In this document: positions 19,213 through 26,380 of the stretch, piece after piece
Position numbering within the stretch: position 1 is the first letter of the stretch
Layout: every line of letters begins with the position of its first letter
Assembly: GCA_009692265.1 (NCBI GenBank)
Contig: SHZM01000007.1
Span: forward strand, 1 to 64,000
Length of the DNA stretch: 64,000 bases
Direction of reading: 5' to 3'
DNA from: Gammaproteobacteria bacterium
Lineage (GTDB): Bacteria > Pseudomonadota > Gammaproteobacteria > Ga0077536
Notes under the pieces: model-generated
What the model saw: the letters and a program-made list of their open reading frames with translations, nothing else
Database searches by the model: none
What the model was told of the DNA's origin: nothing
Translations under genes and position numbers: made by a program

Positions 19213-20607
19213 TTAAAGGCCGTGCTGCTTCATCCGATAACGCATCGTCATTCGCGTAATTCCAAGTTGACGGGCGGCTTCGGAGACGTTCTCCCCGGTC
19301 CGACGCAAGGCATGCTCGATGAGCGTTTTCTCTGCTTGGTCCAAGGTCAAATCGAATAGATCCCCGCCGCTGGCGGTCTGCGCAACCGCAGCCTTGGCGC
19401 TCGGGAGCATTAACGAATCCGCTGAATCGACGACTCCACTCGATAGCAGCAGCGCGCGTTCAATGACGTGGCGCAATTCGCGAATATTGCCCGGCCAGTG
19501 GTAGCCCAAGAGGGCCGCCCGCGCTTGCGGTCCAAGTTCGAAGGCCGGGAAGCCGTAGCGCCGCGCTAATTGCCGTCCGCAGTGCTCAGCCAACATCACG
19601 ATATCGGCGCCACGTTCGCGTAACGGTGCCAAGTACAGGCTTAAGACATTCAAACGGAAATACAGATCTGAACGCAATGTGCCCTCGGTGACCATCTTCT
19701 CTACGTTGCGGTTCGTGGCCGCGATAAACCAGGCATCGATCCGACGTTCCTGGCTGCTGCCGACTCGGCGTAGCGAACGGCGCTCAAGTACGGCCAACAG
19801 CTTTGCTTGTAACTCAAGCGGTAACTCGCCGATCTCATCCAAAAATAAAACGCCATGTTCCGCGGCTTCGATCAACCCTGTGCGCTCCCCCACCGCGCTG
19901 GTAAAGGCACCTCTGACATGCCCGAACAGCTCTGCCTCGATCAAATCCTTCGGTAGCGCGGCGCAGTCGACATGGACGAACGGATGCGCGGCGCGCGAAG
20001 ACTGTTGGTGCAGCATTCGCGCCGCGAGATCTTTCCCTGTTCCGGTTTCGCCCACGATCAACACGGTCGGTGCCACGCCCCCAGCGGATCCGGCCACCGT
20101 TGCCATTTGGAGGATCTGCGCCCGTAGAGTCGTGGCAATCGGCGACTTCCCAATGATTTCCGCCGCCTCACTGACTACGGCTTCACGCGCCTTCGAATAT
20201 TCGAGCTGCTGCGAGACACGTTGATTACTCAAAATCTTACGAACGTTGAGCAGTAGCTCGTCGAGATCAATCGGCTTCTTCAGATAATCCGCGGCGCCGA
20301 GTTTCATCGCAGTCACTGCGTCTTCGATTTCGCCGTAGGCGCTCATCGCCAAAATCGGTGTAAGCAACGCCAAACCGCTTCGCAGGCGCTGGATAAAATC
20401 CAGGCCTGAGCCATCGGGTAGCCGCATATCGAGGATCAAAAGATCGGGCTCGCTGGCGGTTAATGCGCGCTCGCCCTCAGCGAGAGTGGTGATCGCTTCA
20501 CAGGTGTACCCAGCCTTAGTCAGGCGACGCGCGACTGCCTTCGCGAACAATGCTTCGTCTTCAATAATCAGGATCCGAGCGGGCGGCTCAAGGAGGGCAT
20601 CAGTCAT
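19213..20607 (-). CDS. Sigma-54-dependent response regulator, NtrC family
   Basis: A 464-residue three-domain regulator. Receiver domain (about 10-125) with acidic IIEDE and phospho-acceptor Asp60 in LILDMRLPDGSG; AAA+ domain (about 150-390) with Walker A GETGTGKD (186-193), Walker B LFLDEIGELP and arginine-rich sensor blocks; Fis-type helix-turn-helix at the C-terminus (NVSEAARQLGITRMTMRYRM). The sigma-54 contact loop reads GAFTSA (233-238), not the usual GAFTGA. It overlaps the sensor kinase gene by 8 bp and is translated after it. Its targets are unknown; the free-standing pqqA lies just beyond the kinase on the opposite strand. Confidence 0.93.
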   Translation of the reverse strand: MTDALLEPPARILIIEDEALFAKAVARRLTKAGYTCEAITTLAEGERALTASEPDLLILDMRLPDGSGLDFIQRLRSGLALLTPILAMSAYGEIEDAVTAMKLGAADYLKKPIDLDELLLNVRKILSNQRVSQQLEYSKAREAVVSEAAEIIGKSPIATTLRAQILQMATVAGSAGGVAPTVLIVGETGTGKDLAARMLHQQSSRAAHPFVHVDCAALPKDLIEAELFGHVRGAFTSAVGERTGLIEAAEHGVLFLDEIGELPLELQAKLLAVLERRSLRRVGSSQERRIDAWFIAATNRNVEKMVTEGTLRSDLYFRLNVLSLYLAPLRERGADIVMLAEHCGRQLARRYGFPAFELGPQARAALLGYHWPGNIRELRHVIERALLLSSGVVDSADSLMLPSAKAAVAQTASGGDLFDLTLDQAEKTLIEHALRRTGENVSEAARQLGITRMTMRYRMKQHGL

Positions 20608-22075
20608 CGGCGGTGCGAATCGCTAAGGGGGCGACAATAGTAACGCGGGTGCCCGTTTTATCGATGACCTCAAAATCAAGCGACCAGCCATGCGCATTGC
20701 AGACCTTGAACGCGATAGGGATCCCAAGGCCAGTGCCGAATCGCTTAGTCGTCGGTCCGGGGGTTAAGTCGGAGGGGTTCGGAATAAACGGGATGCCGCC
20801 AGCCTGGTCGACTAAAGTCATGACGGTTCCACTGCTAAGTTGCTCGATACCAAGGGTAAGTTCGGTCCCTGGTGGTGATGCTTCAACAGAGTTCGACAAC
20901 AAGCCGTAGATTGCCTGCTCCATCAAATCTAGATCGACCTCGAGCAGCACCTCCTGCTGCCACGGCACGCGGATCACATTAATCGCCTTCTCCAATATGC
21001 GCGGTTTCAGGAGTTCGACGATGCCGTCCCACAACTCAGCAGCACGATGGGTTTGCAGACGCGGTTGGAAAGGATGCAAGTAGGAGACGAGCGCACTTAC
21101 CCACCGGCCTAGGCGATCGACCGCTTCGATAATGGCGTGTCCGGTCTCGAGGGTTTCGGCATGCGAGTCGGCGTACTCGAGCATTTGCGCATTGGCCCTG
21201 ATACTGGCCAACGGATTTCGAATGTTATGCGCAACCACCGGCACCAGCGCACCTAACGCCGCTTGGCGTTCCGATTCGACTAGCGCATCGCGTTTGGCTG
21301 CGAGTTCCTGCGCCATATGGTTAATCCCACTGGCGAGATCAGCGATTTCGGTGACGCCGGCGCGTGGCAGGCGAAGGTCAAAGTCACCGGCGCTGATTTG
21401 TTGCGTACCGCGCATAATCCCGTCGATGGGCCGCACAAATCCGCGCGTTAAACTCCCTCGCGACACCAATAACAACCCAATCGCAATTAACAAGGGCAAA
21501 GGCATGAGGTACGGGGCGTAACGGGTCCATTGGTTTACTCGCGCGTTCTGAATTGCGAGGGATTGTTCAATTAACCCGGTGAAGGTGTCGTACGCCGATT
21601 CGAATCCCCGCAAGAGTTGCGCCTCGAAACTCGGATCAAGTAACTTGCTGCGAACCATCCTATTCAGAAGAAATGAATCCGCGAGTACAGTTTGGAGATC
21701 CGCCTGTAGGTGGCTGTAGGCTTCCTGCAGATGCTGGATCGCATAATCTTCGCCCCGCGAGTCGGAGCGCTGGCGAAGCGTATTGAAACGAGTCTGAATC
21801 TCTTGGTAGTAGCGCATATACGCCGGCTTGTCTGACGGCTCCGCGCGCATGCGAGAAATCGCCGCTTCCTGGATCTGACGAAACAACAACGTCCGGATGT
21901 CCTGTGCCGCATCGCGCACGGCATGAAGGCGTAAGGTCTCGGTCGAGGTCTGTTGCCAGAAGTAGGCCCACGCCCCGCCCATGCCGCCCGTCACTGCCAC
22001 TAGCACTAAGAAAGCGAGTTCGTGTCCCAATAAAAGTCGACGAAGAGACTGCGAGGCGGCGGGCATAGTGGCCAT
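20600..22075 (-). CDS. Membrane sensor histidine kinase, partner of the sigma-54 regulator
   Basis: A 491-residue kinase. Transmembrane segments at about 19-40 and 190-205 bracket a periplasmic helical sensor region of about 150 residues; a HAMP domain follows (VRPIDGIMRGTQQISAGDFD). The phospho-acceptor box is VVAHNIRNPLAS with His283, the N box LLSNSVEASPPG, the G1 box DQAGGIPF and the GTGLGIPIA lid. The ATG at 22073-22075 follows GAGGG and puts the first membrane helix near the N-terminus; the frame is open 25 codons further. It forms an operon with the downstream regulator. The signal sensed is unknown. Confidence 0.92.
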   Translation of the reverse strand: MATMPAASQSLRRLLLGHELAFLVLVAVTGGMGGAWAYFWQQTSTETLRLHAVRDAAQDIRTLLFRQIQEAAISRMRAEPSDKPAYMRYYQEIQTRFNTLRQRSDSRGEDYAIQHLQEAYSHLQADLQTVLADSFLLNRMVRSKLLDPSFEAQLLRGFESAYDTFTGLIEQSLAIQNARVNQWTRYAPYLMPLPLLIAIGLLLVSRGSLTRGFVRPIDGIMRGTQQISAGDFDLRLPRAGVTEIADLASGINHMAQELAAKRDALVESERQAALGALVPVVAHNIRNPLASIRANAQMLEYADSHAETLETGHAIIEAVDRLGRWVSALVSYLHPFQPRLQTHRAAELWDGIVELLKPRILEKAINVIRVPWQQEVLLEVDLDLMEQAIYGLLSNSVEASPPGTELTLGIEQLSSGTVMTLVDQAGGIPFIPNPSDLTPGPTTKRFGTGLGIPIAFKVCNAHGWSLDFEVIDKTGTRVTIVAPLAIRTADD

Positions 22076-22449
22076 TATAGAACCCTCGCTAAGCCCCACA
22101 ATCCGCCGAGGTGGTTCATATGGGCCGAAGAGTTGGTTGACAGCAGCCATGACTTAGCAGGAGCAATCTTGCCGATGGCTGTGCAATGCCGGCTCGCGGC
22201 TTGTACGACCCTCTATCGACTCGACCTAAGTCAACGAACTTGGGCCGGCTGGGCTTGCAGAATTACTCCACAGGGACTCTTCGGATTCAACGGCTTAACT
22301 CAAGTTCAAGGCATGAAACGCCATTTGGGAGTGGTCTTCAGGCGAGTCCTTCAGTCCCCGGCGTTACAGGGCGATACCGACATGAGTCCCACTGCGGCAC
22401 ACGCTTTGCACAGGCCTAGCCAGGCACACTGTTCAAATGAGGTAGCGCG
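22076..22449. other. Intergenic region between sensor kinase and second pqqA
   Basis: About 370 bases with no gene I would support. Short open frames are present but have no family features or ribosome sites. It must hold the divergent promoters for the kinase operon and for the second pqqA. I looked for a sigma-54 promoter (GG-N10-GC type) for pqqA and did not find a convincing one. GAGG lies 9 bases before the pqqA start. Confidence 0.5.
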
Positions 22450-22577: not shown

Positions 22578-22777
22578 CGTGTTCGCGATTACCAGCCTGG
22601 TTCACCAGGGTAAAAATCGGCGCAACCGACGATAACCCGTTTCTAGGTCTAAACTTTCGACATCATGACCATCCATGGCTCGCTAACGCATGGGTGTTCA
22701 AACGGTTTGGGCGCTCTATACTTCCGCCGCCCAGACGGACACGGGCCAGTGCAACCAATGGAGGTCAGGACACGCTA

Positions 22778-23407
22778 GTGAATCGAGACTGTTCTCGCAT
22801 GTCGTTTTCAAAAACTTCACTATTCGCTCGTGCCCTTCTGATGCTACTCCCGTCGCTCGCGGCTCCCGGCATTGGTCGGGCGGACGGTATGGAGGACCAT
22901 ATTTCTTTGCCCTCCGCCGAGTACAGCCTTGAAATAGACAAATCCGCACGCGAGCTGTTGTTGCGTCAAGGCTCGCGGATTGCGCGAAAGTACAGGGTCG
23001 CTGTAGGTCGTGGCGGCCACGGTGAAAAGCAGATCAGGGGCGACAATAAAACGCCCGAAGGCGTGTACTACATCGCTGGGTTCAACGAAGAAAGCACGTT
23101 CGACATTTTTTTTCGACTCAACTACCCGAACGTGAAAGACGGGTTCTTTGGTCTGCAGCGGTTGCTCATTACGCGCCAGGAGTTCAATCAGATTGTCGAC
23201 GCGCAGCGTCAAGATGCGTTGCCGCCCCAAAACACTCCGCTCGGCGGCGCGATCGGGATCCACGGCATCGGCCAGGAAACCCCGTCGTTACTCAAAATTC
23301 ACCGGAATATGGATTGGACTAAGGGCTGCATTGCATTGACCAACCGCGAGATTCACGAATTGCGCAGCTATGTCGACGTGGGAACACGGGTGGTGATCCG
23401 CGAATGA
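22778..23407 (+). CDS. L,D-transpeptidase (YkuD domain), exported
   Basis: A protein of about 209 residues with a signal peptide in its first 37 or so (SLFARALLMLLPSLAAPGIGRADG). The rest is a YkuD catalytic domain: SLEIDKSARELLL, TPEGVYYI, GIHGIGQE and the active-site block TKGCIALTNREI, whose cysteine forms the acyl-enzyme. Such enzymes make 3-3 cross-links in peptidoglycan or attach proteins to it. I chose GTG at 22778 because AGGA and GGAGG precede it; an ATG at 22799 is possible and keeps the signal peptide. The stop overlaps the next gene (ATGA), so the pair is co-translated. Confidence 0.87.
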   Translation: MNRDCSRMSFSKTSLFARALLMLLPSLAAPGIGRADGMEDHISLPSAEYSLEIDKSARELLLRQGSRIARKYRVAVGRGGHGEKQIRGDNKTPEGVYYIAGFNEESTFDIFFRLNYPNVKDGFFGLQRLLITRQEFNQIVDAQRQDALPPQNTPLGGAIGIHGIGQETPSLLKIHRNMDWTKGCIALTNREIHELRSYVDVGTRVVIRE

Positions 23408-23874
23408 GAATGCGTGGTTTACGCAGCGTGTGGGCGATGGCGGGTGTACTGTTGATGCTCACTGTGTTGGCGAGCGAACCTGGCACCAACACCGATCTCG
23501 TTGTTCGCGGGACGACCTCAAAAACCTTTGACGAGGTCATTCTGGAATTGAATTTTGCCATCACCGAGCGCAACTTTCGGATTACCGGCCGCAATACTAT
23601 CGGCAAGGGCCTTCGCGAGCGCGGCTACAAAGACTTCCCCGACGTCGAAGTCATACATTTCTGTAATCTCGAGTACGCGCACGAAGTGTTACTGCTCGAC
23701 CCAGGATATGTGGCGATGATGCCCTGCCGCGTCTCCGTACATGAGGTCGCCGATAAAACCGTGGTGAGCGTAGTCTTGCTACCGGAAACGCATGCCGATC
23801 CACGGGTAGTTGCATTCGCTAAACGGATGAACATCTCGTTGCGGGAAATTTTGACCTACGTGCTGGAAGAGTAA
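23404..23874 (+). CDS. DUF302 family protein, exported
   Basis: A 156-residue protein with a signal peptide (about 1-24, WAMAGVLLMLTVLAS). The mature part carries the DUF302 pattern: SKTFDEVILELNFAITERNFRITGR, then FPDVEVIHFCNLEYAHEVLLLDPGY and MMPCRVSVHEVADKTVVSVVLL. The family has a small alpha-beta fold and no firmly assigned reaction; several members are periplasmic or redox-linked. The start overlaps the L,D-transpeptidase stop by 4 bases, so the two are made together. Any link to cell-wall work is only inferred from that. Confidence 0.85.
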   Translation: MRMRGLRSVWAMAGVLLMLTVLASEPGTNTDLVVRGTTSKTFDEVILELNFAITERNFRITGRNTIGKGLRERGYKDFPDVEVIHFCNLEYAHEVLLLDPGYVAMMPCRVSVHEVADKTVVSVVLLPETHADPRVVAFAKRMNISLREILTYVLEE

Positions 23875-23923: not shown

Positions 23924-24679
23924 ATGCTAAATCCCCTCGATACGCGCGTTGCGGGCCCTCCCCACTTGTTGTTGTTGATCTGGTTATGCTTGGTGAGTCT
24001 CGTGATATTCGGCTCGGTGGTATCGATCGATCAGGGACTGCTGCAAGCAATGCTGAGCGCCGATCGCAGTCAGATTTGCATCGTCGTCATCGCGATGACC
24101 CTCGTTGGCTTCGGCCACACCTATGTTAGAACAGAGCTGATCTCGTCAGAACTCGTCGCGGCTGAGCGAGTCGTCGCCCGCCTCGAAACCGACAATGGCG
24201 CGCTGAGCATGAATTCGCGTAGCCTCCAATTCGCCAACGGCGATCAGGCACCACATAGCTTTATCACGAATTATCTCGTGGCCGAGTATGACCATCTGCG
24301 GCAGGCGAAGGATAACAACTTAGCCGACTCGAATTTGCTCGAGGCGTTTAGCTCAAAGATCCGCAGCGCGAACGAGTTCGGTTGGTTCTATATCGATCTG
24401 ATGTTAAAAATCGGGTTCTTGGGCACTCTCGTGGGTTTTATCTTGATGTTGAGTTCAGTCGCCGACACGGGAGCGTTGGACGCAACCACCATGCAGAAGG
24501 TTCTCAAGCACATGAGCCTCGGCATGAGTACGGCGCTCTACACGACGTTGGCGAGCCTGGTCGGCGGGATTCTCCTGTCGCTTCCTTACTATCTGCTTGA
24601 TCGCGGCTTGGAGCGTCTGCTCCAACTGACGGTCTACGCTAAGGACGTGCTCTTACCTGCGCGGTTGTCGTCGAATTAA
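23924..24679 (+). CDS. MotA/TolQ/ExbB-like proton channel family membrane protein
   Basis: A 251-residue membrane protein. Hydrophobic helices at about 14-38 and 50-67, then a cytoplasmic stretch, then the channel domain: FGWFYIDLMLKIGFLGTLVGFILML (about 155-180) and MSLGMSTALYTTLASLVGGILLSLPYYLLD (about 200-230). The GTLVGF and the T-A-L-Y-T-TLA-S-VGG pattern are those of MotA, TolQ and ExbB, which use proton flow to drive a periplasmic partner. The next three genes follow at 9, 10 and 20 bp and probably form its complex. It is neither a normal TolQ (no tolRAB) nor MotA (no motB). Confidence 0.8.
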   Translation: MLNPLDTRVAGPPHLLLLIWLCLVSLVIFGSVVSIDQGLLQAMLSADRSQICIVVIAMTLVGFGHTYVRTELISSELVAAERVVARLETDNGALSMNSRSLQFANGDQAPHSFITNYLVAEYDHLRQAKDNNLADSNLLEAFSSKIRSANEFGWFYIDLMLKIGFLGTLVGFILMLSSVADTGALDATTMQKVLKHMSLGMSTALYTTLASLVGGILLSLPYYLLDRGLERLLQLTVYAKDVLLPARLSSN

Positions 24680-24688
24680 GGCCCCTGC

Positions 24689-25312
24689 ATGTCTGCCTTT
24701 GCGCGTGCCAGTAGTCGTCACCGTCAGCCGTTCGATCCGATTACGGCGGTCCTGTTCAAGATTATTCAGGCGATCACCTACCTGTTCGTGTTGGCGGTAA
24801 TGTTTATGAATCCGGTGTCCAAGCAGGGCATCATCGATCCGAAAGCGGAATACATCATTACAGTGACCTGGCCGGATAAAAATCCGAACGACATCGACAC
24901 CTATGTCGAAGATCCGGCTGGAAATATGATCAATTTCTCCTCTGCGGCCGCCGGGCTTATTCATCTTGATCGCGATGACCGAGGTAATTTGAACGACACA
25001 CTCAATATCAATGGTAAGGTAATCGAGAACCCGCTGAACCAGGAAGTTACCACCATCCGCGGGGTAATCACTGGCGAGTACATCGTCAATATCCATTACT
25101 ACGCGACTGAAGATAACAAGCCTGTCCCAGTCACTGTGCGTGTCGACAAAGTAAACCCAAAACTGGAAGTGCTGTACTACGATACCTTGACCCTGGAACG
25201 CAAAGACGACGAAAAAACCGCGATCCGTTTTACGATCTTGAGTGGCGGGACAGTCACCAACATCAATCACATCTCGAAGAGCCTGGTTGCCAAGGCCTTC
25301 AAGCGCAGTTAG
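24689..25312 (+). CDS. Membrane-anchored periplasmic protein, putative ExbD-like partner
   Basis: A 207-residue protein with one transmembrane helix near the N-terminus (about 20-41, AVLFKIIQAITYLFVLAVMF) and a periplasmic beta-rich domain. The domain contains YIITVTWPDKNPNDIDTYVEDPAG and GEYIVNIHYYA, reminiscent of the DUF2135/YfaP-type fold in which a D-x-D-x-Y/H-x-x-D-P-x-G loop is typical. The topology, one helix plus periplasmic domain directly after an ExbB-like gene, is that of ExbD, TolR or MotB, but the sequence is not theirs. Named function unknown; a proton-driven partner role is inferred. Confidence 0.65.
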   Translation: MSAFARASSRHRQPFDPITAVLFKIIQAITYLFVLAVMFMNPVSKQGIIDPKAEYIITVTWPDKNPNDIDTYVEDPAGNMINFSSAAAGLIHLDRDDRGNLNDTLNINGKVIENPLNQEVTTIRGVITGEYIVNIHYYATEDNKPVPVTVRVDKVNPKLEVLYYDTLTLERKDDEKTAIRFTILSGGTVTNINHISKSLVAKAFKRS

Positions 25313-25322
25313 GGGAACTCGA

Positions 25323-25847
25323 GTGAATTTTGGACACGGTGCAATTGTCTCGGCCTTCGTTGTTACTACCCTCATTCTGCTCGGCTTGGGGCTTTATTCG
25401 AAGTGGTCTCCGCGGACCAAAACAGGCGCTATCGTACTCGTGACTTTGGCTTATCTGCTGGTGTATTTCGCGCTACCGCGGATACTCGGTTGGCCGACCG
25501 ATCGCCAGGTACCCCGTCGATTTAACTTGATCGCGGTGTATATCCAGGATCCGGACGAGCAAACGGGCGAAGCCGGCAGCGTGTTCTTCTGGGCCGGTGA
25601 TCTCGCGCCCGGCGCCGATCCGCGGCCACGTGCCTACCGCATGCCGTTCAAGGCTTTGTTCAAATCGGTTTTTCAAGAAGCCCAAGGCAAGCTTCGGCAG
25701 AATATTCCGCAAGAAGGCGAAATCGAACTGGACGATGAGCCAAAAGGCGCGCCGTTGGATTGGACGCGCATGGGTCAGAAAAGCGTCAAGCTTAAATTCA
25801 AGGACGCCATGGTCAACTTACCGCCTGCCAAAGGCACTCCGAATTAA
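25323..25847 (+). CDS. Membrane protein of unknown function, paralogue 1 of the ExbB-like cassette
   Basis: About 174 residues starting at a GTG with AGGGGA in front. Two hydrophobic helices (about 5-24 and 33-54) are followed by a soluble domain beginning RILGWPTDRQVPRRFNLIAVYIQDPDEQ and including FFWAGDLAPG and PRAYRMPFK. The same order of blocks occurs in the next gene, so the two are tandem paralogues. The domain is not one I can name. It may lie in the periplasm after the second helix. The C-terminal part is more charged (EGEIELDDEPKG) than in the paralogue. Confidence 0.7.
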   Translation: MNFGHGAIVSAFVVTTLILLGLGLYSKWSPRTKTGAIVLVTLAYLLVYFALPRILGWPTDRQVPRRFNLIAVYIQDPDEQTGEAGSVFFWAGDLAPGADPRPRAYRMPFKALFKSVFQEAQGKLRQNIPQEGEIELDDEPKGAPLDWTRMGQKSVKLKFKDAMVNLPPAKGTPN

Positions 25848-25867
25848 GCGCGAGAGAGTTTAATGTT

Positions 25868-26380
25868 ATGAGCACGCCAAGTGTCGCGGCCTTCGTTGCA
25901 GGCTACATCGTGATCGCCTTACTGCTTGCAAACCTGTTGTTCTGCACTCGTTGGAGGTGGTGGATAAAACTCGCGGCGCTGCTCTGGGTGGCTGGTCTTT
26001 TTCAGATTACCTACCGCTCGTTGCCCGATCTCTTAGGGTGGCCAACCGCGCGAAGCGTGCCCGAGCGTTTCAATCTCATGGGGTTACATATTGTTGAACC
26101 AGACAAAAGCGGCTCGACCAAAGGTGATATTTATCTGTGGGTGACAGACTTAAATTTAGACGGCTCGGCACGGGTGCCGCGCGCCTTTGTCGTGCCGTTT
26201 CACCCTGAATTGCAGGTCAAACTCATCGCGGCGGGTACTAAATTGCGCAAAGGTTTACCGCAACTCGGGGAACAGGTCGATACACCGTTTGAATCCGGCC
26301 CAGCGACATTGGGCCACGCCGATAACGCGCTTAACCTCGATTTCTACGACATGCCCGATCCGCTGTTCCCTGAGCGTTAG
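25868..26380 (+). CDS. Membrane protein of unknown function, paralogue 2 of the ExbB-like cassette
   Basis: A 170-residue protein with two hydrophobic helices (about 6-26 and 33-50) and then LLGWPTARSVPERFNLMGLHIVEPDK, DIYLWVTDLNLDG and RVPRAFVVPFHPELQ. These align by eye with the preceding gene (LGWPT-x-R-x-VP-x-RFNL, W-x-x-DL, PRA-x-x-x-PF), which marks an internal duplication. No enzymatic motif is visible. It is the last gene of the four-gene set; the next gene converges from the other strand 22 bp away. Confidence 0.7.
   Translation: MSTPSVAAFVAGYIVIALLLANLLFCTRWRWWIKLAALLWVAGLFQITYRSLPDLLGWPTARSVPERFNLMGLHIVEPDKSGSTKGDIYLWVTDLNLDGSARVPRAFVVPFHPELQVKLIAAGTKLRKGLPQLGEQVDTPFESGPATLGHADNALNLDFYDMPDPLFPER

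Follow-up and report, generated by a model that had tools for sequence, protein, structure and literature searches.

A three-gene operon linking a MotA/TolQ/ExbB-family channel protein to a DUF2135-like periplasmic domain in bacterial chromosomes and rhizobial phages

What kind of membrane system is built around an ExbB/MotA-family channel protein when the genes that follow it encode none of the usual partners? The question is raised by a locus of Gammaproteobacteria bacterium (assembly GCA_009692265.1, GTDB lineage Ga0077536), where the original prediction, made from the DNA alone, saw a new four-gene system. The window, meaning the whole stretch analysed, comprises 64,000 nucleotides of contig SHZM01000007.1 (positions 1 to 64,000). 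The four genes are located on its + strand as A (23924..24679), B (24689..25312), C (25323..25847) and D (25868..26380), with intergenic gaps of 9, 10 and 20 bp, which bears out the tight spacing first described. Chance open reading frames are ruled out, since dozens of genomes keep these genes side by side. Upstream on the same strand are a gene for a YkuD-type L,D-transpeptidase (22694..23407, +; Pfam YkuD 9.1e-20, HG...GCI motif), whose likely start is at 22799 and whose product carries a signal peptide, and a DUF302 gene (23404..23874, +; Pfam DUF302 1.5e-14) lying between it and A. The run therefore begins earlier than had been proposed, and since these genes share a strand with A to D, overlap each other by 4 bp and end 49 bp before A, it is plausible that YkuD, DUF302, A, B, C and D form a single six-gene transcription unit. 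Divergently oriented upstream are genes for a sensor kinase and an NtrC-type regulator (window 19213-22150), with homologues in the same place in many relatives that carry YkuD and A-B-C.

Gene A encodes a 251-residue member of the MotA/TolQ/ExbB proton-channel superfamily. It scores 32.1 bits against Pfam MotA_ExbB (PF01618; E 1.1e-7), above the curated cut-off of 22.9, and 17 of 18 A-family members, phage members among them, match the same model at E<=0.1. Five further MotA_ExbB genes were found in a search of the window's own genome. Four helices are predicted in A (residues 15-33, 50-68, 159-177 and 207-225), the second and third joined by a cytoplasmic loop, which is the topology of MotA and ZorA; the solved structures closest to the A profile are PomA/MotA (8gqy, 3e-5) and ZorA (8vvn, 6e-5). 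The early label of "ExbB/TolQ-like" is thus valid at the superfamily level only. Two motifs of A, GT (T168) and TT (T207/T208), align to their counterparts in 8gqy (PomA), and T208, the second threonine of the TT motif, is retained in all 60 aligned chromosomal A proteins and in 32 of 34 from phages. Phage A proteins, mostly about 132-172 residues long, are missing the greater part of the cytoplasmic domain, and their first channel threonine is often replaced by Asn; D47 is retained in 33 of 34.

Gene B encodes a protein of 207 residues with one predicted helix (residues 21-39), followed by what appears to be a periplasmic β-sandwich of the DUF2135 superfamily. An AlphaFold2 model (pLDDT 84; the alignments for our models drew on window and viral-contig sequences) places the helix at 17-40 and strands from 49 to 193, so that the periplasmic part is predicted to be all-β. 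The original prediction of a single helix with a DUF2135-like domain has held up, with a family assignment that is distant: against DUF2135 (PF09906) the window's B scores 15.2 bits, below the gathering score of 22 (E 0.024), and 6 of 19 B members give sub-threshold matches, the best at E 8.8e-4. A more indirect connection is provided by the B profile, which detects a VIT-DUF2135 protein of 1118 residues with a Pfam DUF2135 domain (L106 1083-4436, G399), and through it the B domain would belong, as a distant relation, to the DUF2135 neighbourhood. Matches to B in the viral library are proteins with a β domain, and a fold search of B against the PDB returned nothing at E<=1e-3. The periplasmic domain is the best-conserved part of B, and purifying selection on the family is strong. 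Conserved residues are W61, D68, D70, R95, D96, D97, G99, E119, R124, G129, N134, E175 and T177. No OmpA-like peptidoglycan-binding domain was matched in B with Pfam or NCBIfam, and the ExbD model PF02472, searched against the window's own genome, matched five other genes and not B. By its sequence features, B is the predicted counterpart of MotB, ExbD and TolR with a different periplasmic domain.

The helix of B bears most directly on proton coupling. In most B proteins it reads D-P-F-T-D-L-L-F-N, in which we take the second D to be the site of the proton-carrying aspartate of MotB, ExbD and TolR; the PF-x-D pattern resembles that of ExbD/TolR. This canonical aspartate is present in all 33 phage B proteins and in 41 of 67 from chromosomes. 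The other 26 chromosomal proteins, the window's among them, we call type 2: in all of them the aspartate is replaced by Ala or Val, a Lys stands four residues on, and D16 is retained. In the window's B (codons 16-24, 24734..24760, +) the canonical site is A20, with D16 one turn before it and K24 one turn after. Both the window's lineage and a genus with 6-8.8 Mb genomes have lost the canonical residue and have the Lys four positions further on, and convergence is possible. Two independent losses are what the tree points to, at a p-AU of 0.0625, not significant, when it was retested without the helix columns. Because the canonical aspartate is kept in most B proteins, and D47 and T208 in phage A, the A/B family as a whole looks, from its residues, like a proton motor. 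Within it the window's copy stands out as unusual: coupling is its least certain point, and it may lack coupling of the usual kind, since its B has lost the aspartate and carries a lysine in the helix. Of the ion-path residues anticipated at the outset, then, the channel threonines were found in A and the partner-helix aspartate in most relatives, and the latter is missing from the window's own B.

Genes C (174 residues, GTG start) and D (170 residues) are tandem paralogues, about 33% identical, and share LGWPT...RFNL as had been noted. Both are predicted to have two helices followed by a small periplasmic domain of the strand-strand-strand-helix type; in the model of D (mean pLDDT 70) the helices span 6-26 and 31-56 and the tail is disordered. 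No convincing Pfam model matched the C family, and fold searches of C and D against the PDB returned nothing at E<=1e-3. The initial view that B, C and D are not ExbD, TolR, TolA, TonB or MotB stands, as none of those models matched. What does not stand is a unit of four genes. The genes do travel together, but a second copy of C is limited to family f133 and, within the window's family, to genera g1, g4 and g9; D is a lineage-specific duplicate confined to some lineages, and the core is therefore A-B-C.

The association of the core genes was examined across bacterial genomes. In a survey of 369 genomes of the window's class, 42 were found to carry B and 37 to carry C; every genome with C (37/37) also has B, in keeping with the co-occurrence expected at the outset; the Fisher p value of 8e-46 is indicative only, since related genomes are not independent. 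Five genomes have B and no C at that cut-off. Local HMMs detect C in two of these (G288 and G366), B lies near a contig end in G398, and the B matches in G303 and G399 are weak and fall within large proteins. In a sample of 58 genomes of relatives B is present in 28, and apart from contig ends and one genus the loci that were read all have the order A-B-C; genus g6 has A-B with no C alongside. At the phylum level B was found in 17 of 398 genomes, including the genus with 6-8.8 Mb genomes.

Three contexts recur on chromosomes. About two dozen loci have YkuD upstream, mostly with DUF302, which is thus a conserved neighbour, and tilS downstream. In a second context of 11 loci a lipoprotein gene with a weak DUF3108-like match adjoins C, and its product may be a fourth component in those lineages. 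This gene encodes about 235 residues and often overlaps the C stop codon (L037, L080, L082, L087-L091, L102, L103 and L107). Two-component genes form the third context, which includes the 6-8.8 Mb genomes and L096. Three genomes (G153, G174 and G268) have one copy beside YkuD and tilS and another elsewhere. A-B-C is also kept in genomes of ~1.0-1.1 Mb (L093 and L108; G176 and G288), beside genes that read as fumarate hydratase- and aconitase-like.

The same three genes are carried by phages. All credible tblastn matches to B came from phages of Rhizobium and Sinorhizobium, in 27 records if duplicates are counted and with a best E of 9e-27, and in each phage locus read a small A-like gene precedes B and a C-like gene follows it. 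Matches in Klebsiella thyA phages (E 0.4-2) and in Caulobacter RBC57 (E 0.1) were left out as chance or domain-only. IMG/VR holds 27 distinct loci with B, and A, B and C are in order on one strand in all 27, often with small genes inserted between them. Inserts in L046 and L048 include HNH or Seg-like homing endonuclease genes. Twenty-five of the loci are of the 16-3 type. These usually begin with the endolysin, followed by Rz-like and Rz1-like or holin-like genes, then a small one-helix protein and a trypsin-like protease, with A, B and C last. Pfam and PHROGs searches of representatives identified lysozyme, GH19-like, amidase and muramidase endolysins, an Rz1-like spanin and the protease; for phage A, B and C, PHROGs offered no usable family. 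An endolysin gene lies upstream in 22 of the 22 16-3-type contigs with enough sequence there, counted by cluster membership and the Pfam/PHROGs scans, the other 3 of the 25 ending short. Rz/Rz1-like and trypsin-like protease genes are found in most, and A-B-C stays in its slot while the type of endolysin varies. In one viral contig (L137 6027-6569) the place of the trypsin-like protease ahead of A is taken by an unrelated protein with no Pfam match, which by eye looks like a periplasmic serine protease of the ClpP/SppA type. P10VF and RHph_I1_9, which are large lytic phages, carry A-B-C away from the lysis genes.

A match to a named complex was looked for, and none was found in the libraries used. 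MotAB/PomAB comes close: A has the same Pfam family, four-helix topology and GT and TT motifs, and in most relatives an Asp stands close to where the single N-terminal helix of B begins. The differences are a DUF2135-like β-sandwich in place of the OmpA-like peptidoglycan-binding domain, the extra subunit C, and the loss of most of the cytoplasmic domain in phage A. ExbBD-TonB and TolQRA share the superfamily of A. They differ in that B here is unmatched by PF02472 and has a predicted all-β periplasmic fold, A has four predicted helices, and there is no TolA- or TonB-type protein, C having two helices. Within or directly beside the operon there was no match to TolA, TonB, Pal/TolB or a TonB-dependent transporter. 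DUF2135/YfaP-type β domains resemble the domain of B, which in B is fused directly to a motor-type transmembrane helix. The replacement of the usual periplasmic domain by a new one has a parallel in the TPH-vWA and SHLS-vWA force transducers, recently proposed TolQ-linked modules; these differ in having a vWA domain and often heterologous pairs, in place of a DUF2135-like domain with C (PMC12204202). Our searches of the open literature returned no paper on ExbB and DUF2135 together, and none that placed an ExbB/TolQ/MotA-like system among the lysis genes of a phage. The portions available of two 2025 papers on the superfamily contain no description of an A-B-C operon. The type of motor is already known; the A-B-C version and its phage setting appear to be undescribed.

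We favor a reading in which A, B and C form a PMF-driven motor of the 5:2 type, with C as an accessory, that acts on peptidoglycan or on the link between peptidoglycan and outer membrane; its probability is roughly 0.5. What the analysis shows is the gene content, the co-occurrence, the family of A, the helix and fold predictions, the conserved residues and the neighbors; the stoichiometry, proton coupling, movement, target and role in lysis are what we infer. A would assemble as a pentamer in the inner membrane, with two B helices passing through its pore that rotate or tilt as protons pass. The β-sandwich of B would carry this movement into the periplasm, where C, together with its copy D in the window, would dock on the motor as an accessory subunit and contact the target. 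Peptidoglycan or its outer-membrane attachment is the likeliest target because the chromosomal neighbors are L,D-transpeptidase or lipoprotein genes and phage endolysin, spanin and protease genes lie upstream. In phages the motor may help to open the envelope at lysis, and in bacteria it may serve envelope upkeep or remodelling. Proton coupling in the window's copy, if there is any, would run through D16 in place of the lost canonical aspartate. Several points tell against the motor: adjacency of genes is no proof of joint function, P10VF and RHph_I1_9 carry the module away from lysis genes, the window's B has a Lys and lacks the Asp, and phage A has neither most of the cytoplasmic domain nor, often, the first channel threonine.

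Some of these points would suit a gated ion channel or PMF sensor made of A and B that produces no force. In phages it could be a depolarising leak that triggers lysis, and in bacteria a regulated leak or a stress sensor wired to two-component systems. The minimal phage A, with its cytoplasmic domain absent, is consistent with this, as are the two-component genes next to some loci and the several phages in which, on a reading of the sequence, the endolysin is a lysozyme that bears a hydrophobic segment at its N terminus and no obvious holin lies next to it. A simple leak, however, would need neither the periplasmic domain, which is the best-conserved part of B, nor C, which phages always keep, and the transpore-type aspartate is conserved as in motors; we consider this explanation rather unlikely. 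Less likely again is that the window's type-2 copy has lost coupling and become a passive scaffold between inner membrane and periplasm, with the duplication of C into D as part of the change. The substitutions in all 26 type-2 B proteins fit such a scaffold, and in g1, g4, g9 and f133 type 2 goes with a doubled C. Type 2 also occurs with a single C in the 6-8.8 Mb genomes, though, and with no C beside it in g6, and the channel threonines of type-2 A, the invariant D16 and the strong purifying selection also tell against it.

A Zorya-like anti-phage system, or superinfection exclusion in phages, is the least probable of the alternatives and is very unlikely. It draws on the four-helix topology in common with ZorA, on a profile match to ZorA about equal to that with PomA, on weak PADLOC ZorA matches (6e-5) and on the carriage of the module by phages. 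In ZorAB, however, A has a long tail, B an OmpA-like domain, and ZorC/D or ZorE effector genes lie alongside; here none of these was found, and the neighbors are YkuD, DUF302, tilS or lysis genes. The chromosomal loci have a stable context, syntenic by housekeeping genes (tilS; in reduced genomes fumarate hydratase- and aconitase-like by reading), and do not lie in defence islands.

If the motor reading is right, A-B-C would add a new periplasmic domain, and a subunit found only with it, to the PMF-driven 5:2 motors, which are few in kind. Two recent papers indicate that more kinds of PMF-driven motor are left to explore (PMC12505986, PMC12204202). Its spread in Gram-negative bacteria is broad but patchy and reaches genomes of ~1 Mb, and the phage version sits beside endolysin/spanin genes; a working A-B-C would mean an energised step in phage lysis and another PMF-driven link to the cell wall in bacteria. 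In Rhizobiales, L,D-transpeptidases tether the β-barrels of the outer membrane to peptidoglycan (PMC11527210). Spanins may therefore not be enough for phages that infect these hosts. It is possible, although doubtful, that rhizobial phages include a miniature MotA/MotB-like proton motor in their regular lysis program, powered by the host's PMF before it collapses and acting alongside a periplasmic protease so that the covalent bonds holding outer-membrane proteins to peptidoglycan are loosened, while the bacterial version by the L,D-transpeptidase gene manages the same attachment. With the temperate laboratory phage 16-3 and its Sinorhizobium host, the phage copies open the function to direct test. 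The layout of the 16-3-type loci, with an endolysin, a holin-like gene, a trypsin-like protease and A-B-C, is also seen in a prophage-like region of a bacterial genome (L105; G577 C38).
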